Part shown: positions 1,103 to 29,824 of the stretch, one piece after another
Position numbering within the stretch: the stretch's first letter is position 1
Layout of the letters: every line of letters begins with the position of its first letter
Source of the DNA: a virus
Reading direction: 5' to 3' (one strand)
Virus record (IMG/VR): IMGVR_UViG_3300036715_004097
Location: 1-33,445 of that record
DNA: 33,445 nt
The notes under the pieces: generated by a model
Databases searched by the model: none
Told to the model about the DNA's origin: nothing
What the model saw: the letters and a program-made list of their open reading frames with translations, nothing else
Translations under genes and position numbers: made by a program

Positions 1103-1487
1103 GCTGAGCAGGTCTGAGCAGGCGAATACGGTGGGGCGCCCCTTCAAGCCCGGCAAGTCGGGCAACCCTGGCGGCGTGTCGAAGGAAAAGCGCGCATTCC
1201 TTGAGCGGCTCCGCACTGACGACGCCGAAGAGGTCTACACGTCGCTGATGGACCTGGTCCGCCAGCGCAACCCTTCGGCCGTCATCCGCGCCTGGGAGTG
1301 GGTGGTGGGCAGGCCTCGCGAGTCGGTGGAGGTGAGCGGCCCCGGCGGCGCGCCCCTCACCGTTGCGCGCATCGACCCATCGAAGCTGACGGCCGGTCAA
1401 CTGCACGCCTTCGTCGCGGCCCTGCGCGCGCAGCATCGCGACGCGCCCGAGATGGACACACCCAACGAGCCAGATCCCAGTGCATGA
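1083..1487 (+). CDS. DUF5681 protein, terminase small subunit-like
   Basis: A 134-residue protein. Near residue 19 it carries GRPFKPGKSGNPGG, the hallmark of DUF5681 proteins, which are often encoded just upstream of a large terminase. The rest is a short helical body (about residues 35-80) and a Pro/Asp-rich tail. The ATG has only GGGAGGCGAGCC upstream and lies inside the previous gene. The stop overlaps the terminase ATG (ATGA), so the two are translationally coupled. A role as DNA-recognition subunit of the packaging motor is inferred from position. The family's biochemistry is not established. Confidence 0.72.
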   Translation: MAKKRAELSRSEQANTVGRPFKPGKSGNPGGVSKEKRAFLERLRTDDAEEVYTSLMDLVRQRNPSAVIRAWEWVVGRPRESVEVSGPGGAPLTVARIDPSKLTAGQLHAFVAALRAQHRDAPEMDTPNEPDPSA

Positions 1488-2887: not shown

Positions 2888-5344
2888 GTGGCCAAGCGCA
2901 CCCTCTCACGCAAGACGCTCAGCCGGGCCGACGAGGAGCCATTCGCCGGGCCCGACTTGCGCCTGACGGCTGACGGGCGGCTTGCGCTTGGGCCGCAGGA
3001 GATTGGCGCGACGGGTACCGCCAACTCCTTCGGAGACCTCCTCACCGAGTACAACCCGGCCCTCACCTATCAGCAGGGCTACGGCACGCCGGGCTCTCGC
3101 AGCTGGGGCGCGTGGGAGTACTTGCGCCGCACCAACCCCTGGGTGGCGCAGGGGCTCGAGTTCGTCGCCTCGCCGATTCGCGACGCGTCAATCGGCGTGC
3201 AGGTGGCGACACACGAGTCCCTGCCAGAGGAACTGGCGGCGAAGCAAGCCGACTTCGTTCGCTGGGCTCTCACTGAGGCGCTGTCGCCCGCCATCAGCGA
3301 CCTGCTCCAGTCGATGACGAAGTCGGGGCTCAACGACGGCTTCGAGCTGCGCGAGCTCGTCTGGGGCAGCGTCAAACACCCGTCTCTCCCGGGCGGCATC
3401 GGCAACAGCGTCGTGCGCCTGGCCGAGCGCCTGCCGTCGACGCTCATCTACCAAGCGTGGCACGAGGAGAATGGCCAACTGGTGGGCGTACGGCAGCGTG
3501 CGCCCTTCGCCGGTGCGTGGCGCATCGTCGAGATTCCCGTGGAGAAAGTGAGCCTCTTCAGCTGGGGCCGAACCGGGAACAACTACGCCGGCTACTCGGT
3601 GTGGCGGCCGGTTTTTTACATCACGCAGGTGCAGGAGCAGATCCTCAAGATGCTCGGAATCACGCTGACGCGCGAGGGCGCCGGCGTGCCGACGGCGGTG
3701 TCGCAGGGTGCGGACGCCGCCAACCTCAACGACAAGCAGCGCAAGGCGCTGGCGCGGCTGCTCCAGAATCTCGTGTACCACGAGAACGCCAGCGTCGTGA
3801 TGCCGAGGGGCTGGGACATCAAGTGGGTCTACAGCCCCGGCGCCAACAAGAGCCACGTGCTCGAGGCGTGGCGCGACCTCGGCATCGTCGTCCTCCAAAT
3901 GGTGGGCGCGCAGCAGTTGACACTGGGCACGGGTGGTACTGGCTCCCGTGCTGTCGGCCAGACGCATGATGCGCAGTCACTTGTTTTCGTGCAGTCCGTG
4001 GTTGCCGCGCTGGAGTCGTGCCTCAATGGTCGCGCGGGCGCTCTCGAGACGGGCCTCGTGCGCAAGCTGGTGGACGCCAACTGGGGCCCGCAGCCGGCGT
4101 ACCCGAAGCTGACGATTTCCCTGAAGCGGCCGCAGCTCGGACCCCTCGAGAAAATGCAGGCGGTACAGGCCGCAGTCGGTGCCGGCGCACTCACCGTCAC
4201 CGCCGACGACGAGAACGCGTTCCGCGAAGACCTCGGCCTTGAGCCAATCGACGCCGAGGCACGCGACGAAGAGAAGGCCAAGCGCGCCGCCCTTCGTCCG
4301 CCCGTCGCAGCCGTGCCTCCCGGGCAGCCCGCTCAGACGCCCAACGACGACTCAAGCCCAGGTCAGTCGCCTGCCGCACGTGCGCCGGCCGACAAGGAGG
4401 AGAACCAGCTTCCTCTGGGCACCTCTCGTGGCGCGTGCGGTTGCACCACGCACCGTCGCCTCGCTCGAGGTGGACAGCCCTTCACGCCGTCTCGGGCCCT
4501 GCGTCCCGGCGAGGAGAGGCTCGACCTCGCGGCGATTGACTCCTTCCTCAACAGCGCTCGCCATGACTTCGAGCAGCGCGTACGCCCCGTCGTCGTCGAG
4601 ATGTTGGTGAAGGCGCAGCCGGCCATTCACCGCGCGATGGCCGAGGGCAAGCCGGCCGACGTGGCGAAGGTGCCGCTGGACACCTCGCGGCTGTCGGACG
4701 CCATCGACGCATTCCTCACTGCCTGTCGCGCCGAGGGCAACCGGCAGGTGCGGGGCGAGCTACGCAAGGGCGCCGGGCCCGACATCGCGGAGAAGCGCGC
4801 CGAGGGAGAGCCCGCGGTGGCGCCCACGAAGCTGGCGGCCGCTGGCGACGACGAGGACGACGAGGGCAAAGAGGCCGACAACTCGCCCGAGGAAGAGGCC
4901 GACGAGCTGCTCCAGCACCAGCGTGACGCGCTCCTTCGCCGCATGGAGTCGCGCCTCGAAGGGCAGCTTGAGCAGGAGGCCATCGACGCGAAGCGCACCG
5001 GCGGCGACGCCTCCGAAGTCGTCTCGCGCACCGTCGAGGATCAGCTCGACTCGGGCGCCTTCCGCGCGGACGCGGGCACCGTCGTCACCAAGGCCTGGAA
5101 TGCCGGGCGCGACGAGGCCGCGAAGCAGCTGGGTGGCGTGGCGGCTGTGCAGTACTCAGCCATCCTCGACGGCAAGCAGTGCGACGAGTGCGCGGCGATG
5201 GACGGCGCCACGGCCGACTTCGAGAGCGCGGAGCATGACGCGATGGTGCCGCCCAACCGCGACTGCGAGGGCGGCGACAACTGTCGCTGCTGTCTCGTCT
5301 ACCTCACGGCCGATCAGGCCCCCAACGACGGGAGCGACGAATGA
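2888..5344 (+). CDS. Portal protein fused to MuF-type head morphogenesis domain
   Basis: An 818-residue protein. Residues about 40-430 match the DUF935 / Mu gp29 portal family in layout (SWGAWEYLRRTNPWVAQGLEFV, later LNDKQRKALARLLQN and LEAWRDLGIVVLQMV). Portals form the dodecameric DNA gate at one head vertex. After a linker and a highly acidic coiled stretch (about 648-700), residues 754-805 carry the zinc-like C-terminal signature of Mu gpF / SPP1 gp7 proteins: YSAILDGKQCDECAAMDG, then PPNRDCEGG and CRCC. These are separate genes in Mu. GTG 2888 is chosen because a TAG at 2852 closes the frame and no other start lies between. Its ribosome binding site is poor. The stop overlaps the next ATG. 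Confidence 0.88.
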   Translation: MAKRTLSRKTLSRADEEPFAGPDLRLTADGRLALGPQEIGATGTANSFGDLLTEYNPALTYQQGYGTPGSRSWGAWEYLRRTNPWVAQGLEFVASPIRDASIGVQVATHESLPEELAAKQADFVRWALTEALSPAISDLLQSMTKSGLNDGFELRELVWGSVKHPSLPGGIGNSVVRLAERLPSTLIYQAWHEENGQLVGVRQRAPFAGAWRIVEIPVEKVSLFSWGRTGNNYAGYSVWRPVFYITQVQEQILKMLGITLTREGAGVPTAVSQGADAANLNDKQRKALARLLQNLVYHENASVVMPRGWDIKWVYSPGANKSHVLEAWRDLGIVVLQMVGAQQLTLGTGGTGSRAVGQTHDAQSLVFVQSVVAALESCLNGRAGALETGLVRKLVDANWGPQPAYPKLTISLKRPQLGPLEKMQAVQAAVGAGALTVTADDENAFREDLGLEPIDAEARDEEKAKRAALRPPVAAVPPGQPAQTPNDDSSPGQSPAARAPADKEENQLPLGTSRGACGCTTHRRLARGGQPFTPSRALRPGEERLDLAAIDSFLNSARHDFEQRVRPVVVEMLVKAQPAIHRAMAEGKPADVAKVPLDTSRLSDAIDAFLTACRAEGNRQVRGELRKGAGPDIAEKRAEGEPAVAPTKLAAAGDDEDDEGKEADNSPEEEADELLQHQRDALLRRMESRLEGQLEQEAIDAKRTGGDASEVVSRTVEDQLDSGAFRADAGTVVTKAWNAGRDEAAKQLGGVAAVQYSAILDGKQCDECAAMDGATADFESAEHDAMVPPNRDCEGGDNCRCCLVYLTADQAPNDGSDE
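4160..4190 (+). repeat. 31-base exact match to 25478-25508
   Basis: These 31 bases, inside the portal gene (codons for about residues 425-434), recur without mismatch at 25478-25508. There they lie on the non-coding strand of a leftward gene. In the portal frame they encode QAVQAAVGAGAL. In the leftward frame their complement encodes CAGTDCGLYR. Both readings look like functional protein, so neither copy is plainly debris. Confidence 0.9.
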
Positions 5345-20540: not shown

Positions 20541-21068
20541 GTGGCGACCTATACGAAAATCCCGAAGCCGACTTCAGCCAACTACGCCCTCGGCTACCAA
20601 ACGTTCAACACCGCAACGCAGAATCAACTGGCGCTGCGCGATGCCTGGGTGCTGCGGCATGGCGCAGTCGATTTTCAGCCGCCGCCCGCCAACGCACAGA
20701 GCCGACCCGACTGGACAACGTGGCTGGGGCGCCACAACGATGAGCGAATCCCTCGAGACGTCGTCTACGTGCGACCGCGCGTCAGTGGAGCGTCGTACGC
20801 GGTAGATATGCTGGCAGGGCACCATGCGACGGCTGTTTCGCGCTTCGCTGCGGGCGCCTACTTCGTCAGGGTGCTGGGGCTGCAAAACTACTGGGGCGTC
20901 GCCGCCATCGCGGCAGGAAACTTGGCAGTGTGGGCGATGGCTCGCTCCGACTACCCACCCTACGGAAGCACGTCGCAGTCAGGCATCTGGGTGTTCACCT
21001 ACTCGATGGGTGCGTCGTCGCTCGTTGCTGTCGACGCCCCATTCACCCTCGCCGTCTACGGCAGCTAG
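20541..21068 (+). CDS. Tail tip or adhesin-like protein
   Basis: A 175-residue protein starting at GTG directly after the previous stop (TGAGTG). It has a short helical N-terminus (QNQLALRDAWVLRHGAVDF), a GRHNDERIPRDVVYVRP segment, and a C-terminal beta region rich in Ala, Gly, Tyr and Trp. The RHNDERIPRDV stretch recalls the HN-x-x-EVP motif of the preceding gene, so the two may share a fold. As the last tail gene it is a candidate for host recognition. Its stop overlaps the stop of the leftward lipoprotein gene by four bases. Confidence 0.58.
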   Translation: MATYTKIPKPTSANYALGYQTFNTATQNQLALRDAWVLRHGAVDFQPPPANAQSRPDWTTWLGRHNDERIPRDVVYVRPRVSGASYAVDMLAGHHATAVSRFAAGAYFVRVLGLQNYWGVAAIAAGNLAVWAMARSDYPPYGSTSQSGIWVFTYSMGASSLVAVDAPFTLAVYGS

Positions 21069-21493
21069 CGCGAGCTGCACTGGATCTGGTTCGTCTCGTG
21101 GAATCGACTGCTGGCGCACCACGAGCACGCGAAGCCGACACCGGTGCCGCCATCCACGGAGATGGCGCTCGCCGACGCGTCCCGCTCCCCGCCGCTTCCG
21201 CCTGGAGCGTCGCAGGAGACAAGAGGGCCGCCGTCCGCATAGGCCAGGCACGAGGTGGTTTGGCCGATTTCTGCGCAGCCATCGCACTGCACCTCAACCC
21301 ACTCTCCGGCCGAACACACGCGCATCGTGTTGGACCGCAGGTCGACGTGGAGGGAGCAGAAGGCGCTGTCGGCGCCGAGCTCGCCGCCGGGTGACTTCTC
21401 GAAGAGATAGTCCGGCTTCACGCACCCGCCGTCGGGCAAGTGCTTCCCGTCACCGCACGCGCTCGCCACCACGGCCACCACCAGAAGCATCAT
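21065..21493 (-). CDS. Leftward lipoprotein (moron candidate)
   Basis: A 142-residue protein with a short lipoprotein signal peptide, MMLLVVAVVASACGDG. The lipobox ASAC puts the lipidated cysteine at residue 13, followed by Gly, not the Asp inner-membrane retention signal. The mature part is Cys-rich (for example CDGCAE, SCLAY, FACSWC), suggesting several disulphides. ATG 21493 is chosen because GGAG lies eight bases upstream; an ATG two codons earlier is too close. It is the only leftward gene among late rightward genes. Phage lipoproteins often block superinfection or alter the host surface. That role is an inference, and the ligand is unknown. Confidence 0.72.
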   Translation of the reverse strand: MMLLVVAVVASACGDGKHLPDGGCVKPDYLFEKSPGGELGADSAFCSLHVDLRSNTMRVCSAGEWVEVQCDGCAEIGQTTSCLAYADGGPLVSCDAPGGSGGERDASASAISVDGGTGVGFACSWCASSRFHETNQIQCSSR

Positions 21494-21551: not shown

Positions 21552-21571
21552 GCGGTGTAGCAGCGAAGGAC
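21552..21571 (+). repeat. 20-base element upstream of endolysin, copy 2
   Basis: GCGGTGTAGCAGCGAAGGAC, identical to 2846-2865, again with 22 bases between its end and the start codon. A partial relative, ACCGTAGCAGCGCCGG, lies at 21505-21520 in front of the leftward lipoprotein gene. The separate GGAGGG nearer the ATG is the ribosome binding site here, so the element is probably not for translation. Confidence 0.7.
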
Positions 21572-22223: not shown

Positions 22224-22871
22224 ATGCGTCACCTCAAGCTGCACCTGCTGCTCTTCGTCGCCGCCGCTCTCGCCGTCCTCACGCCCGCACTGGCCCTCGC
22301 GCAGGACGGGGGGGCGCCGTTGCCTCTCCCGACGTCCCACGTCGCTCCAGCGCCCGCGCAGAGCCCTCTGCTGGGCCTCTTCTTTGAGTACGCGCTGCCG
22401 CCTCTCCTGACGGGGCTCGGCGGCCTCGTCCTCTGGCTGCTCGGCAAGCTGGGCGACTTCCTCGCCGCCAAGACGTTAGCGCAGGTGCAGGTCTCGCTCG
22501 CCGCGAAGGGCCTCGACGCGTTGAGCAAGTTGACCGTCATCGTGCAGCACACCGTGACGGAGGCCGAGGCGTCCTTGAGGCCCCTCTTCGCCAAGTCGCT
22601 CGAGGACGGAAGACTGACGCCTGAAGAGGGCGCCGCGCTCAAGGCCGCCGTGCTCAAGCAACTCAAGGAGCAACTCGCGCCCGAGCTGCTCGCGCTCGTC
22701 AAGACTGAGCTCGGCGACGCCTTCGAGACGGTGCTCGGTGGTCTCGTCGAGGGCGCCGTCGCCAAGCTGGGCACCTCATCGGCGCCGGCTGCCGCCACCT
22801 CGGCCGCGCTCGCCCTGAAGGCAGCGGAGTTGATGCCGGCCCCCCCTTCGATGCCCCTCGCCGGGAGCTGA
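22224..22871 (+). CDS. Holin-like membrane protein
   Basis: A 215-residue protein with a cleavable-looking signal (about residues 1-26, LLLFVAAALAVLTPALALAQ). A membrane helix lies near 55-75 (LPPLLTGLGGLVLWLLGKLG), followed by a long amphipathic helix region with the block DGRLTPEEGAALKAAVLKQLKEQL. Signal, one membrane helix and a charged cytoplasmic or periplasmic tail resemble LL-H-type phage holins, and the gene follows the endolysin. CTGGAGCCACC lies before the ATG. Its last codons contain a run of seven C, and a -1 slip there would read into an open frame to 23083. Segments of this gene recur antisense in the leftward operon. Confidence 0.68.
   Translation: MRHLKLHLLLFVAAALAVLTPALALAQDGGAPLPLPTSHVAPAPAQSPLLGLFFEYALPPLLTGLGGLVLWLLGKLGDFLAAKTLAQVQVSLAAKGLDALSKLTVIVQHTVTEAEASLRPLFAKSLEDGRLTPEEGAALKAAVLKQLKEQLAPELLALVKTELGDAFETVLGGLVEGAVAKLGTSSAPAAATSAALALKAAELMPAPPSMPLAGS
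22372..22395 (+). repeat. Holin segment repeated at 25072-25095
   Basis: Twenty-four bases encoding GLFFEYA of the holin recur at 25072-25095 with one mismatch (T to C in a wobble position). The second copy lies on the non-coding strand of a leftward gene. Confidence 0.75.
22656..22695 (+). repeat. Holin segment repeated at 23664-23703
   Basis: Forty bases encoding KQLKEQLAPELLA of the holin recur at 23664-23703 with five mismatches, beginning with 14 identical bases. The second copy is immediately beyond the stop of the leftward gene 23938-23708. Confidence 0.75.
22840..22846 (+). other. C7 tract / possible -1 slippery site in holin
   Basis: Seven C in a row, read in frame as GCC-CCC-CCT, make the heptamer C-CCC-CCT (22841-22847), which fits the X-XXY-YYZ slippery rule. 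A -1 slip reaches a frame open to 23083. An extra C in the tract would do the same permanently, so it may be programmed, phase-variable, or a base-count error. Confidence 0.5.
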
Positions 22872-23083
22872 GCGAGGGGCTTACCGCAGTCGACGCGCTG
22901 CCCGTCGGCACGGGGTACGCGCAGTTGCTCGCCGGCCTCGACACCACGGCCGCCTGGGCGCGTGGTGAGGCGGGCTGGCACCCGCGCGCCGGTCTGGACG
23001 TCTATGGCTACGGCGAGGCCCGCGCAGCCTGGGGCGCCACCGTGGAGGGCGTCGTGGGCGTTGGCGTCAGGGCTACGTGGTGA
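22847..23083 (+). CDS. Frame-shifted C-terminal ORF after holin, barrel-like end
   Basis: In the -1 frame of the holin gene an open stretch of 78 codons runs to TGA 23083. It has strong coding look: LTAVDALPVGTGYAQLLAG, then TTAAWARGEAGWHPRAGLDVYGYGEARAAW, ending GVGVRATW. The alternating beta pattern and final aromatic residue recall the C-terminus of an outer-membrane beta barrel. It has no ATG or GTG; CTG 22868 and TTG 22922 are the only in-frame candidates noted, neither with a good Shine-Dalgarno site. It may be expressed by slippage on the C7 tract, or be the tail of a damaged gene. A third lysis protein acting on the outer membrane is a speculative role. Confidence 0.45.
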   Translation, partial: FDAPRRELSEGLTAVDALPVGTGYAQLLAGLDTTAAWARGEAGWHPRAGLDVYGYGEARAAWGATVEGVVGVGVRATW

Positions 23084-23089
23084 GGCTTA

Positions 23090-23107
23090 CTCGGCGTCCT
23101 CGCCGAG
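23090..23107 (+). terminator. Perfect hairpin ending the lysis operon
   Basis: CTCGGCG-TCCT-CGCCGAG is a seven-pair perfect stem with a four-base loop, six bases after TGA 23083. It has no T-run, but it lies between two converging operons, where a bidirectional terminator is expected. From 23108 to 23255 I see no convincing gene; a near-palindrome lies around 23212-23227. Confidence 0.55.
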
Positions 23108-23255
23108 CCGTGTGGCGCCCACCGGCCGGCGGTCTGCGGGGAGACAGCCGAAGGCGTGGGGCGTGACAGGTGGCTGTTGGTCTGGCGCGCCCAACGCCTC
23201 CCCGAAGGGCTTCCGGCGGCCGGAGGGCGATGCCTGGAGAGGAGTGTGGCCCCCG

Positions 23256-23462
23256 TCACTTGCCGCACTGACAACTCGGCACCAGGCAACGCCCCTTCTC
23301 GTGCGTAGTGTCCAGGTGACCGCAGCCGCAGAAGTCAGGCCTCAGGGGGCACGCGCGGCAACTGCACAGCCCGAGTATCAGCGCGGAGCCCCCCCCGAGA
23401 GGAGCCACCTGTTCACCGAGGGAGCCTCCTTGGGCCAGTGTGTCGGGGGCCGCAGTCGGCAT
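23256..23462 (-). CDS. Cys-rich zinc-binding protein end
   Basis: A 68-residue frame whose C-terminal half is strongly Cys-rich: CSCRACPLRPDFCGCGHLDTTHEKGRCLVPSCQCGK. The C-G-C-G-H...H...C...C-x-C arrangement is a familiar small zinc-binding motif of phage and bacterial proteins. The ATG at 23462 lacks a good ribosome binding site. The overlapping upstream frame (23569-23378) has an excellent one and would run into this frame by a -1 slip on the G8 tract at 23396-23389. The two may therefore be one protein of about 104 residues. Confidence 0.45.
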   Translation of the reverse strand: MPTAAPDTLAQGGSLGEQVAPLGGGSALILGLCSCRACPLRPDFCGCGHLDTTHEKGRCLVPSCQCGK

Positions 23463-23569
23463 CGTGGCAACGGCGTGCCAACCTCGGCGTTCAGGGCGTT
23501 GCGAGGGCGTCGCGGCACCTCAAGCGCGATGCGGTGAGGGCAGCCGCTGCTGTAGCGGGCGAAGGGCAT
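23378..23569 (-). CDS. Small protein with repeated SVNRWLLS segment
   Basis: A 63-residue frame starting MPFARYSSGCPHRIALEVP, with CAGGAG five bases before the ATG. Near its end is PKEAPSVNRWLLS, shared with the leftward ORF at 25186. It stops at 23378, just after a run of eight G on the coding strand, where the Cys-rich frame overlaps. Read through a -1 slip, it would supply the N-terminus of that zinc-binding protein. No family is recognised. Confidence 0.45.
   Translation of the reverse strand: MPFARYSSGCPHRIALEVPRRPRNALNAEVGTPLPRCRLRPPTHWPKEAPSVNRWLLSGGAPR
23389..23396 (-). other. G8 tract / possible -1 slippery site
   Basis: Eight C on the plus strand give TCG-GGG-GGG-GCT in the frame from 23569, containing the heptamer G-GGG-GGG. 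A -1 slip moves directly into the Cys-rich frame ending at 23256. One added base would do the same. Confidence 0.5.
23395..23436 (-). repeat. Ribosome-binding-site cassette repeat, copy 1
   Basis: Forty-two bases repeated at 25036-25077 with three adjacent mismatches. On the coding strand it contains AAGGAGG, eight bases, then GTGAACAGGTGGCTCCTC, so it looks like a translation start (MNRWLL) with a perfect Shine-Dalgarno site. It also lies in frame with longer ORFs in both places. Confidence 0.75.
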
Positions 23570-23613
23570 GGGGTCTCCTGAAGGAGGGAAGGCGGCAGGC
23601 TCCAGCAGTGGGC

Positions 23614-23664
23614 CATTGCGGTGCTCCCTGGTGCTGCGGCGTGATTGCCGCGATCAGTGATTTA
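23614..23664 (-). promoter_or_regulatory. Leader copy 2 with hairpin and Shine-Dalgarno
   Basis: Matches 25948-26002 with a few changes. On the minus strand it has AAATCACTGATC, the hairpin GCGGC-AATCAC-GCCGC (23651-23636), GCAGCACCAGGGAGCACC, and an ATG at 23616. That ATG opens only about 41 codons. The -10 sequence of copy 1 is absent and replaced by the antisense holin segment, so this leader looks like a displaced duplicate. Confidence 0.6.
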
Positions 23665-23703
23665 AGCAACTCAAGGAACAGGTCGCACCCGAGGTGCTCG
23701 CGC
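23664..23703 (-). repeat. Antisense copy of holin segment 22656-22695
   Basis: Thirty-five of 40 bases match the holin gene in the same plus-strand orientation, so the leftward transcript here is complementary to holin mRNA. It lies between the stop of 23938-23708 and leader copy 2. Confidence 0.7.
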
Positions 23704-23707
23704 GCCC

Positions 23708-23938
23708 TCACTCGTCATCTCCTGCGAACAGCGGGACCGGAGGGCTCCCCGCGAGCACGTAGTGACGCATGGCACCTCGGCACCAGTCGGAGAGCGGCAC
23801 CTGCGCCACCCGCGCCGCCTCCTCGACCAGTGCGCGGAGCTCCGCGCTGCATCGGACCTCGAGACGGGTCTCGCTCACTACACGCCCAGGTGGGCGACCG
23901 CGGCCGCGCTTTGGCACTGCGTTGCGTGAGCCGCTCAC
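23708..23938 (-). CDS. Small DNA-binding protein, ribbon-helix-helix-like, paralog 1
   Basis: A 76-residue basic protein: a GRGRPPGR AT-hook-like turn (about residues 12-19), then a strand SETRLEVRCS and two helices (AELRALVEEAARVAQ and PLSDWCRGAMRHYV), as in ribbon-helix-helix repressors. The tail is LAGSPPVPLFAGDDE. The protein at 25416-25183 shares the GRPPGR turn, the two helices and the SP-V-P-FAG-D tail, so they are paralogs. GTG 23938 overlaps the stop of a 20-codon leader ORF. A repressor or antitoxin-like regulatory role is inferred. Confidence 0.65.
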   Translation of the reverse strand: MSGSRNAVPKRGRGRPPGRVVSETRLEVRCSAELRALVEEAARVAQVPLSDWCRGAMRHYVLAGSPPVPLFAGDDE

Positions 23939-23997
23939 GTGGTGCGAGACCTCGACGGGACCGCGAGTCCACTGCTGACAGCGTGCAAGCGATTCAT
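23935..23997 (-). CDS. 20-residue leader peptide
   Basis: An ATG with GGAG four bases upstream (GGAGAAAATATG) opens 20 codons beginning MNRLHAVSSGLAV and ending exactly in the GTG start of the ribbon-helix-helix-like gene (GTGA). It lies after a GCAGCACCA leader sequence shared with other leftward genes. It may couple or attenuate the downstream gene. No stem-loop attenuator was recognised. Confidence 0.45.
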   Translation of the reverse strand: MNRLHAVSSGLAVPSRSRTT

Positions 23998-24073
23998 ATT
24001 TTCTCCGTGGTGCTGCGGGTAGGCGGCCAGAGCGTCAGGCAGTCTCAGGCGTCGCCCGAGACCGCTAGCCCAG

Positions 24074-24373
24074 TCACGGCAGGTCCTCGGGCTTCGGGCA
24101 GTGCTCGGCCCACGCCTTGACATCTGCCACCAGCACGCGGCGAGCGCTCCAGCGATGGAGCAGCTCTGGCAGGCGCGCAGGCTCCGAGACGCTGTGGTCC
24201 TGCTGCGGTCCGTCCTCCGCAAGTTGGCTTAGCCTGCGGCTTCCTGATTTGCGCACCAACGTGACAGCGCCACACAGCTCCCACTCGTCACCCTCGACGT
24301 GACGGGCCCAGCCAACGCGAGTTACGCCCCAGTAGCGGCCCGGTACTTGAATCAGCAGTAAGCCTTCACGCAT
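24074..24373 (-). CDS. Conserved-looking small protein with internal start
   Basis: ATG 24373 has GGAGG nine bases upstream and gives a 99-residue protein beginning MREGLLLIQVPGRYWGVTRVGWARHVEGDEWELCG and ending AWAEHCPKPEDLP. The Trp-rich first half looks like a compact beta fold. It is in frame with the low-complexity ORF above, so it may be made both alone and as a fusion. I do not recognise the family. Confidence 0.6.
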   Translation of the reverse strand: MREGLLLIQVPGRYWGVTRVGWARHVEGDEWELCGAVTLVRKSGSRRLSQLAEDGPQQDHSVSEPARLPELLHRWSARRVLVADVKAWAEHCPKPEDLP

Positions 24374-24679
24374 CTCGTGTGTCCTCCAGTGGTGGTGGTT
24401 GTTGTTGTTGTCGGTGGCGTCGTTGTCGTTGCTGCTGTCGTCGGTGGCGTCGTCGTCGTCGGCGGTGGCGGTGGTGTCGTCGGCGTCGGTGGTGTCGGCG
24501 GTGGCGGTGGTGTCGTCGGCGTCGGTGTCGTCGGCGTCGGTGACGTCGTCGATGTCGGCGTCGGTATTGTGAGACGCAAACCGCGCGAACTTGCCCCAGC
24601 CGACAGGCTGGGCCGTCTCCTCGGCCGCGTCCTGCAATGCGTCGCGCACGCGCGGGTTAGAGAGTTTGCGGTTCCTCAC
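24074..24679 (-). CDS. Low-complexity Asp/Thr-rich fusion ORF
   Basis: A 201-residue frame from GTG 24679, three bases after the previous stop. Residues 1-38 are an ordinary small domain (NPRVRDALQDAAEETAQPVGWGKFARFASHN). Residues about 39-97 are almost only Asp, Thr, Ala, Asn and His, encoded by a GTC/GTG/GGC triplet tract. Residues 103-201 are an ordinary domain that also has its own start at 24373. Either the two domains are fused by the repeat, or the repeat has removed the stop between two genes. The acidic linker length could vary by triplet slippage. Confidence 0.5.
   Translation of the reverse strand: MRNRKLSNPRVRDALQDAAEETAQPVGWGKFARFASHNTDADIDDVTDADDTDADDTTATADTTDADDTTATADDDDATDDSSNDNDATDNNNNHHHWRTHEMREGLLLIQVPGRYWGVTRVGWARHVEGDEWELCGAVTLVRKSGSRRLSQLAEDGPQQDHSVSEPARLPELLHRWSARRVLVADVKAWAEHCPKPEDLP
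24459..24530 (-). repeat. 36-base tandem repeat in triplet tract
   Basis: Two tandem 36-base units (24459-24494, 24495-24530) that differ only near the end, within a tract of GTC/GTG/GGC triplets spanning about 24385-24565. On the coding strand they give a 12-residue repeat such as TTDADDTTATAD. Unit changes would keep the frame. Confidence 0.75.
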
Positions 24680-24682
24680 GGG

Positions 24683-24973
24683 TCACTTCGCCAGGAGCGT
24701 GGTGACGGCCTCCAGCTTCGCCAGCCGCGCCTTACTGGCAGCGATGGCGACGCGACAGCGCGCGCAGCGCGGCCGCATCAGCGCTGCCTCGGCCGACAGC
24801 TCGGCCTCCTTGGCAGCGCGAGCAGCCTCGTACTCGGCGCCCAGCGCGTTGAGCAACCCCTCGTCCGCCCCGAGCTGGAGGCTGCGCTCGAGGTCGGCAA
24901 TCTCCTGCTCCCGCGCCCACTCCTGACCGTCCGCCGTGCCCGCCGCCGCCTTGCTGTAGTTCTTCGAGTCCAC
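24683..24973 (-). CDS. Coiled-coil protein with Cys pair
   Basis: GTG 24973 has GGGAG eight bases upstream and leader copy 3 before it, giving a 96-residue helical protein: MDSKNYSKAAAGTADGQEWAREQEIADLERSLQL, an Ala/Glu-rich coil, then RPRCARCRVAIAASKARL with a CARC pair. A phage small structural or regulatory coil is possible. The frame is also open upstream to GTG 25186, so a longer form exists on paper. Confidence 0.55.
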   Translation of the reverse strand: MDSKNYSKAAAGTADGQEWAREQEIADLERSLQLGADEGLLNALGAEYEAARAAKEAELSAEAALMRPRCARCRVAIAASKARLAKLEAVTTLLAK

Positions 24974-25186
24974 GATCTCACTCCCAGTTGCGGGGCGGCT
25001 TGATTGCCGCGCCCGTTGGTTATTTGCACGGCAGTCCGAGAGGAGCCACCTGTTCACCGATTCAGCCTCCTTGGGCCTCTTCTTCGAGTACGCGCCCCAC
25101 ACGGTCTCGCGCAGCAGCTCGACGACGACGTCGGACGCGCGACGGTGCGCGGTGTATCGGTGCACCGGCACACGAAACGTCCTCAC
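24683..25186 (-). CDS. Longer form containing RTFRVPVHRYTAHRRA N-terminus
   Basis: GTG 25186 overlaps the stop of paralog 2 (GTGA) and opens a 167-residue frame: RTFRVPVHRYTAHRRASDVVVELLRETVWGAY, then SKKRPKEAESVNRWLLS (the repeat shared with 23395-23436), then the same frame as the coil protein above. The first 32 residues look like genuine protein, the middle like inserted repeat and leader sequence. It may be a gene end joined in frame to a second gene by recombination. Confidence 0.4.
   Translation of the reverse strand: MRTFRVPVHRYTAHRRASDVVVELLRETVWGAYSKKRPKEAESVNRWLLSDCRANNQRARQSSRPATGSEIVDSKNYSKAAAGTADGQEWAREQEIADLERSLQLGADEGLLNALGAEYEAARAAKEAELSAEAALMRPRCARCRVAIAASKARLAKLEAVTTLLAK
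24974..25026 (-). promoter_or_regulatory. Leader copy 3 with hairpin
   Basis: On the minus strand: AAATAACCAACGGGC, hairpin GCGGC-AATCAA-GCCGC (25010-24995), then CCGCAACTGGGAGTGAGATC and GTG 24973. It has the same order as copies 1 and 2, with the loop differing in the last base. No convincing -10 box is upstream, so it may act on a longer transcript. Confidence 0.55.
25036..25077 (-). repeat. Ribosome-binding-site cassette repeat, copy 2
   Basis: Matches 23395-23436. Here AAGGAGG and GTGAACAGG continue into an open frame that reaches 24683. The adjacent bases 25072-25095 match the holin gene. Confidence 0.75.
25072..25095 (-). repeat. Antisense copy of holin segment 22372-22395
   Basis: Twenty-three of 24 bases match, in the same plus-strand orientation as the holin gene, so the leftward transcript is complementary to holin mRNA near the codons of its GLFFEYA segment. 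Confidence 0.7.
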
Positions 25187-25416
25187 CCGGCGTCCTCTCC
25201 AGCAAACGGCGGCACCACGGGGGAGCCGGACAGCACTCGCGCGCGCATCGCCTGCCGCGTCCACTCCGTCAGCGTCTGCCCCGCCGCACGCGCTGCGGCG
25301 GACGCGAGGCCTTTCAGCTCGGGCGACAGCGGCACCAGCACCGCCGCGCCCGACTTTGCTGGCGAGCGTCCCGGAGGTCGACCGGGGCCCCGCTTCGCTG
25401 GCTCTCGGGCGGCCAC
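25183..25416 (-). CDS. Small DNA-binding protein, ribbon-helix-helix-like, paralog 2
   Basis: A 77-residue protein from GTG 25416, one base after the previous stop. It has AKRGPGRPPGRSPAKSG, then a strand AAVLVPLS and helices ELKGLASAAARAAGQ and TLTEWTRQAMRARV, and a tail LSGSPVVPPFAGEDAG. The tail and helix pattern match paralog 1 at 23938-23708. Ribbon-helix-helix proteins bind operators as dimers through the N-terminal strand. Two copies in one operon suggest either two operators or heterodimers. The target is unknown. Confidence 0.65.
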   Translation of the reverse strand: MAAREPAKRGPGRPPGRSPAKSGAAVLVPLSPELKGLASAAARAAGQTLTEWTRQAMRARVLSGSPVVPPFAGEDAG

Positions 25417-25417
25417 G

Positions 25418-25717
25418 TCAGGCCACCACTGCGTCGCGGTCGGACTCCTCAGCGTCAATCTGCGCCTGCTCCTCCGCGCGGTACAGGCCGCAGTCGGTGC
25501 CGGCGCACATGTGGCCACCCTTCAGCCACTCCACCCGCGCCCACCTCCCGGCGCTGGTGCGGTACCAACCGGCGAGAGCGACAGGCTCCAGCAGCGTTTC
25601 GTTTTCGGCGAGGTTCGTCACGGTGTCTCCAGCGCTCGCGATGGAATCAGGCAGGGCCGGCGAGCGATGCGGCCCTGCTCTGCGCCCGAGCTGCACCAGC
25701 CTCGGGCGGTGCTGCAT
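25418..25717 (-). CDS. Small hypothetical protein carrying the portal-matching segment
   Basis: A 99-residue protein from ATG 25717, which overlaps the previous stop (TGATG). The body (ETLLEPVALAGWYRTSAGRWARVEWLKGG, then MCAGTDCGLYRAEEQAQ) looks like a short beta domain with a Cys pair. The 31 bases behind CAGTDCGLYR are exactly those of the portal gene on the other strand. The family is unknown. It is the second gene of a coupled operon from the promoter at 26003-26031. Confidence 0.6.
   Translation of the reverse strand: MQHRPRLVQLGRRAGPHRSPALPDSIASAGDTVTNLAENETLLEPVALAGWYRTSAGRWARVEWLKGGHMCAGTDCGLYRAEEQAQIDAEESDRDAVVA
25478..25508 (-). repeat. Antisense copy of portal segment 4160-4190
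   Basis: Thirty-one identical bases in the same plus-strand orientation as the portal gene. The leftward mRNA therefore carries a perfect 31-base complement of portal mRNA. Confidence 0.9.
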
Positions 25718-25950
25718 CAGGCATCGCAGCGGCACTGACCGGCCCAGTGGCGGCCGCACGGCCCGGCCACGTCCCAGGCGCCGCCGCTGGTGATGATGGC
25801 CGAGCCGTCGGGGTACGCGAAGCGGGTCTCGGTGCCGTCGACGCGCGAGACCTCGGCGCCCTCGGCGAACGCGGAACGCTGGGTCTCGGTGAGGGTCGAG
25901 CCGTCCTCGAACTTGGCGGCGCGGGCGGTGGCGATAGATTCGGTGGTCAT
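25717..25950 (-). CDS. Small hypothetical protein, first gene of leftward sub-operon
   Basis: A 77-residue protein, MTTESIATARAAKFEDGSTLTETQRSAFAEGAEV, then a short beta part and GGAWDVAGPCGRHWAGQCRCDA with a Cys/His end that may bind a metal. ATG 25950 has AGGGAG eight bases upstream and a 40-50 base leader with the conserved hairpin. A good promoter lies at 26003-26031. The function is unknown. Confidence 0.65.
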   Translation of the reverse strand: MTTESIATARAAKFEDGSTLTETQRSAFAEGAEVSRVDGTETRFAYPDGSAIITSGGAWDVAGPCGRHWAGQCRCDA

Positions 25951-26002
25951 TGTGGTGCTCCCTGGTGCTGCGGGCGGCGTGATTGCCGCGCTCAGTGATT
26001 TA
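25951..26002 (-). promoter_or_regulatory. Leader copy 1 with hairpin
   Basis: Transcribed leader from the promoter at 26003-26031: AAATCACTGAGC, hairpin GCGGC-AATCAC-GCCGC (25989-25974), GCAGCACCAGGGAGCACCAC, then ATG. This is the only copy with a clear promoter, so it is probably the parental one. Confidence 0.65.
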
Positions 26003-26031
26003 TTTATACAACGCCTCTCACGGCAGCGCAA
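26003..26031 (-). promoter_or_regulatory. Sigma70-like promoter for leftward sub-operon
   Basis: On the minus strand TTGCGC (26031-26026), 17 bases, TATAAA (26008-26003), in an unusually AT-rich spot. Transcription would start near 25996, about 46 bases before ATG 25950. A dyad at 26046-26067 lies just upstream. Confidence 0.7.
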
Positions 26032-26045
26032 GGGTTTTTCGATAT

Positions 26046-27577: not shown

Positions 27578-27607
27578 TTGCTTCTCCTTGGTGGTGCTGC
27601 GTGAGTG

Positions 27608-28115: not shown

Positions 28116-28955
28116 TCACGGCGCGGACGTCTCCGCAACGGATGGCGTCTCCACGGACTCAGCGGCAGCCTCGGCCGGCAGTTCTGCCGGCACGTCGACG
28201 ATTGCCATCTTCCGCGTCACGCGCTCCTTGAGCTTCGCGCTCACGGCCTCGGGCGCGATTGCCTGCGCAACCACCTCGCCGTCGACGTAGTCCGCATCGT
28301 CGGCTTCGATGGCGCGCGCGAAGCGCTCCGAGGAAAGAGGAAGCCACTTCGCCAGGCGGCGAAACACCGTCTTGCGCGCCATTTCGTCGTAGTCCGTCGC
28401 CCACGGGCCGTTGTTTCCACTGCGGCTCCGCGTCCGAATCGCGTCCACCTGGTGGCGCGACATCACCTCCACCAGCACAGAGCCGTCCTTCAACTTCGCC
28501 ACGGCGTAGACGTAGCGCACGCCCCCCGCGTCTCCGTCGAGGTACGGCACATGCTGGATGGTCTGGTCGATTCCCTCCTCGAGCGCGAACTTGTCTTTCT
28601 CACGCACAACGACGGCGCGCACCGAGGCCAACTCGCCCGAGCGCCGGGAGAGCTCGAGGAATCCCCGGTATCCGATGACGGGCGTGCACGTCGTCTTGTA
28701 GGGCACGAGGTAGAGGTGTCCGAGCGGCCCCCCTGGCTCGAGGCCCAACTCGGCCGCCACCAGCACGGACTGGAGCAGCGACGTGGGCGTGCACTGCTGG
28801 AGTTGCGGCGACTTCGCGACACAGTTGACAGCGACCCGCATTAATCGCTCGGGAGTCAGGTGCGCAGGCACCAATTGCGCGATGGAGTCCTTCCGCGCGC
28901 GCAGCAGGTCCGCCAGGGTTTCGGTAGTCGACTTCTGAATTTTCGTTTCGCTCAT
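28116..28955 (-). CDS. recT: RecT-family single-strand annealing protein
   Basis: A 279-residue RecT homologue. Typical blocks are LTPERLMRVAVNCVAKSPQLQQCTPTSLLQSVLVAAELGLEPGGPLGHLYLVPY (about residues 33-85), VIGYRGFLELSRRSGELASVRAVVVREKD (about 92-120), and WATDYDEMARKTVFRRLAKWLPLS (about 184-207). It anneals complementary single strands made by the partner exonuclease, in phage recombination and repair. ATG 28955 has AAGGAG upstream and overlaps the exonuclease stop. The C-terminus is acidic and Ala/Glu/Val-rich, as in other family members. Confidence 0.9.
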   Translation of the reverse strand: MSETKIQKSTTETLADLLRARKDSIAQLVPAHLTPERLMRVAVNCVAKSPQLQQCTPTSLLQSVLVAAELGLEPGGPLGHLYLVPYKTTCTPVIGYRGFLELSRRSGELASVRAVVVREKDKFALEEGIDQTIQHVPYLDGDAGGVRYVYAVAKLKDGSVLVEVMSRHQVDAIRTRSRSGNNGPWATDYDEMARKTVFRRLAKWLPLSSERFARAIEADDADYVDGEVVAQAIAPEAVSAKLKERVTRKMAIVDVPAELPAEAAAESVETPSVAETSAP

Positions 28956-29824
28956 GACTGCTCCTTGGTGTTCCACTTCGGTTTGAACGTGCGCACGCCG
29001 CGCACGTTGGCGCGCCACGTGATGACTCCCTCGGGCCCTTCGATTCCGCTGGCGTCGGCGATGAGCGACTTGAGCCGCGCCTCCAGCGTCTCCGTCGCGC
29101 GCTCCCACTTTCCGGCCTCGCTCTGCGCGAGTCGAAGCTCTGCCATCAGGCAATCTTCCCGAGGCGTCGCTGCACGCACGGGCGTCGCGTCCTTTGGCCA
29201 GCGCGCGCGCAACCAGTCGCGCACCTGACTGCTGCCCTCCATCGAGGGCTCCGCGCCCTCGACGACGTGGCGTCTCCACCACGTGCGGGCGTAGTCGAGC
29301 ATCCGCGCCTGCAACTCTGCGTCGGCGATGGCGTGGTAGACAACGAGGTCTCCGTCAAGCAACGCAGCGAGGTGCATCTCGCTGGAGAGAGGGTAGTGAC
29401 TGGAGCAGACGAGGTGCTCCCACTGGAGCTGGAGGAGGTACTCGGGCGGCACCTGGTCCGTGCCTGACTCCCCCCACTGCGGGCCGCCACGGCGCGGCGA
29501 CTTGATTGAAAGGAGACGCCTTCCGCTCTCGGTCCCGACGACGCGGTCGGGCGTGCACAGGGCGATTGGCGCCTGTGCGTGCCGCACAGTCCCGGGCTCC
29601 AGAGATTCCACCACGCCGTAGCGGTGCGCGTACCAGCGCGCGATGCCGTCCTCGAGGAACGTGCCGCGCCGCATGTCCTCCGTCTCGGGCACACACCACC
29701 CCTGCGTCTTGCTCAGCCACACGTCGTAGGGCGCGGCGAAGCGTGACTCGCCCAGCACGGCGGAAATCTCGCTCCCGCCGATGCCTGTTTTTCGCACCTC
29801 CAGCTGCTCCGGCGTCAGCGGCAT
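28952..29824 (-). CDS. YqaJ-type 5'-3' exonuclease (lambda Exo-like)
   Basis: A 290-residue protein. Residues 14-40 (GIGGSEISAVLGESRFAAPYDVWLSKT) and FLEDGIARWYAHRYG (about 56-70) are the YqaJ signature. The catalytic block reads CTPDRVV (Asp93), then LLSIKSPR (Lys108), then YLLQLQWEHLV. The usual E-x-K appears here as S-I-K, so the middle acidic ligand is missing or replaced. The enzyme should resect double-stranded ends and load RecT, which is coupled downstream. GAGG precedes ATG 29824. Confidence 0.85.
   Translation of the reverse strand: MPLTPEQLEVRKTGIGGSEISAVLGESRFAAPYDVWLSKTQGWCVPETEDMRRGTFLEDGIARWYAHRYGVVESLEPGTVRHAQAPIALCTPDRVVGTESGRRLLSIKSPRRGGPQWGESGTDQVPPEYLLQLQWEHLVCSSHYPLSSEMHLAALLDGDLVVYHAIADAELQARMLDYARTWWRRHVVEGAEPSMEGSSQVRDWLRARWPKDATPVRAATPREDCLMAELRLAQSEAGKWERATETLEARLKSLIADASGIEGPEGVITWRANVRGVRTFKPKWNTKEQS

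Follow-up and report, generated by a model that had tools for sequence, protein, structure and literature searches.

Does a phage operon that carries two pieces of an opposing holin-like gene use them as antisense RNA to time lysis, or did they come to lie there for other reasons? The question is raised by one virus record, IMGVR_UViG_3300036715_004097, whose 33,445 bases (68% G+C) form the window, that is, the whole stretch of DNA analysed here. Its rightward genes include a terminase (Pfam Terminase_6C), a portal of Mu type with an F-like part and a putative endolysin-like gene, which had no match in Pfam or PHROG and whose label derives from its place and its relatives alone. A relative, G001, is syntenic with the window from terminase to tail, its main genes having protein identities of ~28-61%; G002 is a more distant relative.

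The putative holin gene and its two antisense pieces

The gene after the endolysin-like gene encodes a putative holin, weakly so named, mainly from this place and from a hydrophobic stretch seen by eye; it gave a weak match with PHROG 36209 (holin; E = 0.009) and none in Pfam. It is absent from G001 and G002, and no relative was found in viral_contigs (39 pattern stretches), in genome_contigs (249 stretches) or among 50,697 phage records, an empty result that does not amount to absence in nature; these searches may have passed over records very near the window. L018 and MW202637 are relatives of the endolysin; in L018, tblastn with the window ORFs, examined for a shared lysis cassette, returned the endolysin and otherwise weak matches only. 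Around the lysis genes, we also observed a run of seven C (22840-22846, plus strand) near the 3' end of the putative holin, possibly a frameshift or a sequencing error, and downstream of it a coding-like frame (22925-23083) that stays open across this run in another frame and for which no ribosome site was found. Between the tail genes and the lysis cassette lies a cysteine-rich leftward ORF with a lipoprotein-like start (21065-21493, minus strand), to which a leftward ORF in the same place in G001 is similar by eye.

Searching the holin region against its own record returned three places: the gene itself, scrap 1 and scrap 2. Both matches are as given in the preliminary description (35/40 and 23/24), and both are direct repeats on the plus strand. 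Over 20 order-4 Markov simulations of the window (ungapped matches, scored +1/-2) the best direct match reached 16-19, against 25 for scrap 1 and 21 for scrap 2; hence the two scraps are not chance matches. They stand in reverse order relative to the gene, implying two separate events and ruling out a dead holin copy split by insertions.

Table 1. Positions in the window of the putative holin gene, the duplicated patches and the recombinase genes
Feature	Positions	Strand	Remarks
Putative holin gene	22224-22871	+	215 aa; ORF, coding score 77, weak PHROG match; source-type sequence of both scraps
Holin segment paired with scrap 2	22372-22395	+	23/24 match
Holin segment paired with scrap 1	22656-22695	+	35/40 match
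Scrap 1, holin-like	23664-23703	+	35/40 (88%); antisense to leftward transcription
Scrap 2, holin-like	25072-25095	+	23/24 (96%); antisense to leftward transcription
Portal-gene segment	4160-4190	+	copied exactly (31/31) at 25478-25508
Portal scrap	25478-25508	+	31 nt, exact, direct; within leftward ORF 25418-25621
42-nt patch, copy 1	23395-23436	-	39/42 against 25036-25077
42-nt patch, copy 2	25036-25077	-	6 nt (25072-25077, TGGGCC) common to holin scrap 2
Start leader, copy B	23611-23664	-	GCGGC...GCCGC stem; 1 nt common to holin scrap 1
Start leader, copy A	25945-26002	-	before leftward gene 25717-25950
RecT gene	28116-28955	-	Pfam RecT, E = 1.3e-45; candidate agent of short-homology recombination
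YqaJ-type recombinase gene	28952-29824	-	Pfam YqaJ, E = 1.2e-19

The holin reading frame passes through both matched segments, and the six differences between scraps and gene are four synonymous changes and two of Leu to Val, none of them at a second codon position. Under random change, an outcome with all differences synonymous or conservative had P 0.0027 (40,000 trials), the conservative residue classes of this test having been fixed after the differences had been seen. This pattern indicates that holin coding constraint acted while the copies diverged, and that they did not diverge as an antisense pair; it is not what one would predict from decay of an unconstrained scrap or from selection for pairing. 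Either the scrap derives from a diverged holin allele, or holin changed after copying. Adenine-directed diversity-generating copying is ruled out, the differences not being limited to adenines.

Duplicated patches and repeated leaders in the leftward stretch

Holin is not special as a donor: the portal gene, a start leader and a 42-nt patch are also duplicated (Table 1). Across the copied segment, the portals of the window and of G001 align without gaps, which makes the portal gene the natural donor of the 31-nt piece. Scrap 1 starts at the end of leader copy B and scrap 2 inside the 42-nt patch; when two such pieces were placed at random within 23084-26040, the probability that both abutted other patches was 0.0011 (200,000 trials). 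The portal scrap adjoins no other duplicated patch. The stretch thus bears the mark of recombination relics, in that incomplete copies from unrelated genes meet at a few bases common to both.

Over the whole window, seven direct matches have a score of at least 20 and a spacing above 150 nt, two being halves of one leader, and no inverted match of that score and spacing was found. We counted matches by the same thresholds, with terminal repeats set aside, in six other phage sequences. Direct matches numbered two in G001, three in G002, none in MW202637 (part), four in Dorito, 16 in Bumble (most of those listed falling within one stretch, 18-21 kb) and one in Malibo, and inverted ones two in Bumble and none in each of the other five. 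Thus, dispersed direct matches are not unique to the window phage, and the direct orientation is common.

The window being a single virus record, with no junction confirmed by the other records searched, an artefact of assembly or amplification of the metagenomic contig has to be weighed. It is very improbable: the scraps, at 24-42 nt, are shorter than a read, and four of the five patches in the region differ from their partner copy, unlike what is expected of a copying artefact. Exact-pattern scans of viral_contigs gave no hit for holin scrap 2, the leader or the 42-nt patch.

Alternatively, the copied pieces could have been kept for a use unrelated to holin, as leftward coding sequence or as 5' leaders near starts. 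A leftward frame across 25040-25130 scores as coding, the leftward ORF around the portal scrap has a score of 22.5, and AAGGAGG followed by GTG is present in both copies of the 42-nt patch. However, the list of ORFs scoring above 4 does not include the one that follows leader copy B (from 23615), and no homologue of leftward ORF 25421-25621 was found in phages or in G001 and G002. Such re-use is unlikely as the general explanation, although the portal copy in a coding-like ORF and the coding-scoring frame suggest that certain scraps may by now be translated. Among the neighbouring small genes, two leftward ORFs (23708-23938 and 25183-25518, minus strand) appear to encode diverged versions of the same small protein, with GRPPGR and a AGSPPVPLFAGDDE-like end in common and possibly of ribbon-helix-helix type; the second shows 42% identity with G001 over 50 aa. 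A low-complexity run of GTC/GGT repeats (24392-24570, minus strand) encodes an Asp/Thr/Ala-rich linker within leftward ORF 24074-24679.

CGCAGCACCA occurs six times in the window, always on the minus strand, against 0.15 expected, and at 23629-23638, 24008-24017, 25963-25972 and 27592-27601 (minus strand) it stands just before leftward starts with a GGAG-type site; it is a start-associated motif. Of known systems, the one nearest to the repeated leaders is the Start-Associated Sequences of Cluster K mycobacteriophages, which have the consensus GGGATAGGAGCCC before starts (PMC3203893). As described there, those elements are, like leaders A and B, repeated, placed before starts and of one orientation, with an inverted repeat in some; unlike them, the leaders read CGCAGCACCA ... 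GGAG, exist in few copies and belong to another phage group. The consensus GGGATAGGAGCCC is not found in leaders A and B, which are not members of the Cluster K family and may work in a similar way.

A second element, GCGGTGTAGCAGCGAAGGAC, 20 nt long, is present in two identical copies (20/20; 2846-2865 and 21552-21571, plus strand), 22-23 nt upstream of the portal start and of the endolysin-like start. G001 has three like elements (22283-22312, 4174-4193 and 1293-1321, minus strand of that record), with the core GGTGTAGC and a flank that differs from the window; one of them lies in the gap between terminase and portal. A GGTGTAGC element comes after the cysteine-rich leftward ORF in the window and after the ORF similar to it by eye in G001. 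With its conserved core, GCGGTGTAGCAGCGAAGGAC is a candidate late promoter or start-associated element, and the GGTGTAGC element before the portal and lysis-side genes is a more promising lead than the antisense scraps.

Predicted pairing of leftward RNA with late mRNAs

The sequence itself makes leftward RNA complementary to the putative holin mRNA at two sites, and this complementarity, one mark of a trans-acting antisense RNA regulator, goes beyond chance. The preliminary description had pointed it out and suggested that, holin timing setting lysis, such pairing could matter. The modelled pairing is favourable: with the cost of opening local structure added to the duplex energy, scrap 1 gave -29.4 and scrap 2 -21.8 kcal/mol with the holin mRNA, against a best value of -10.3 and a median of +9.7 kcal/mol for 69 other leftward 40-mers. 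The scrap and holin RNAs would thus pair stably if both are made. The portal scrap with portal mRNA, however, gave -32.2 kcal/mol, implying that this strength is what any copied scrap yields.

A role in lysis found no support. Selected antisense control, by which a leftward and presumably early RNA would pair with holin and perhaps portal mRNA, delay late proteins and so time lysis, has in its favour these strong modelled energies and the antisense placing of all three late-gene scraps. Yet the pairing sites lie ~149 and ~433 nt into the holin coding region, away from its start; the differences track holin codons (as an RNA duplex, the six amount by hand count to three wobble pairs and three mismatches); and the scraps are fused to unrelated copied patches. 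In addition, simple scans confined to sigma-70-like promoters and intrinsic terminators gave no leftward promoter-like or terminator-like site, no Rfam family was found in the region, and the leaders fold no better than shuffled sequences (z -0.54, -1.46 and -0.41). The idea of many weak antisense matches was rejected as well: at scores of 13-15 they are no more numerous than the null range allows, and the three strong matches alone stand out. Taken together, these points make antisense control quite improbable.

Phage antisense RNAs such as lambda OOP and P22 sar are discrete and come from an overlapping locus. The RNA considered here is like them in being complementary to a phage mRNA and in coming from the other strand; it differs in consisting of two distant internal scraps, for which simple scans found neither promoter nor terminator. 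Among the papers listed in literature searches on phage antisense RNA, with holins and lysis or with late genes, no title or abstract opening dealt with dispersed antisense scraps of holin, and no paper was found on holin genes paired with a complementary transcript made early. We give little credence indeed to the stronger proposal that three antisense 'stamps', two of holin and one of portal, jointly keep late mRNAs in check for as long as leftward transcription lasts. If it were true, antisense control would have been built by copying scraps of target genes into the opposing operon; antisense control in general, if real here, would reveal how antisense regulators can originate by a simple route.

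Short-homology recombination as the probable source of the scraps

We consider it probable, at about three chances in four, that the holin scraps are relics of short-homology or template-switching recombination in a mosaic stretch of small leftward genes at ~23.1-26.0 kb. Firstly, donors are not confined to holin, since the exact portal piece, the leader and the 42-nt patch are present as second copies too. Secondly, both holin pieces abut another copied patch, and their order is reversed relative to the gene. Thirdly, a fragment of a diverged holin gene would be expected to show just such differences as these six, and antisense matches of lower score are not in excess. Finally, the phage encodes both RecT and a YqaJ-type recombinase, and short dispersed direct matches, with inverted ones rare, occur in other phages too. 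The copies, the way they are fused and the coding-type differences are direct observations, from which we infer the recombination route and the absence of any resulting function.

A polymerase, or a strand annealed by RecT, would switch between short similar sequences, in the phage's own genome or with a related phage bearing a diverged holin allele, and would leave scraps of 24-42 nt in the leftward arm, within its spacers and its small genes. Scraps would be tolerated in the spacers between small leftward genes because constraint there is presumably weak. The antisense pairing would then be a by-product of copying a rightward gene, uninverted, into a leftward operon. Recombination by lambda Red on diverged sequences is reportedly a parallel for phage mosaicism brought about by RecT or Red-beta-like recombinases.

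According to De Paepe et al. 2014 (PMC3945230), exchange of small gene fragments is far commoner than exchange of entire modules; for Red beta, the paper cites 23-27 bp as the minimal pairing segment. The window resembles the mosaicism treated there in that the fragments are small, the phage encodes RecT and lengths of 24-42 nt are near 23-27 bp. The exchanges counted in that paper, however, are those between genomes that measure at least 100 bp, whereas the pieces in the window are second copies within one genome, surrounded by genes on the other strand. The same authors argue that illegitimate recombination is rare in comparison with homology-driven exchange, a view that stands against recombination relics as the explanation here. 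Four further points weigh against it: no relative with the lysis cassette was found, which would display the copying step directly; the portal scrap is exact and lies within a coding-like leftward ORF, so that at least one copy may have been retained; all three late-gene scraps are antisense, an outcome that chance alone would give one time in four; and G001 and G002 have weaker repeats only, so that the process is not in evidence here for the group at large.

The recombination reading, favoured here, offers a view at base-pair scale of how pieces of structural and lysis genes land between leftward phage genes. It also carries a caution, in that a phage operon complementary to a late gene does not necessarily exert antisense control.
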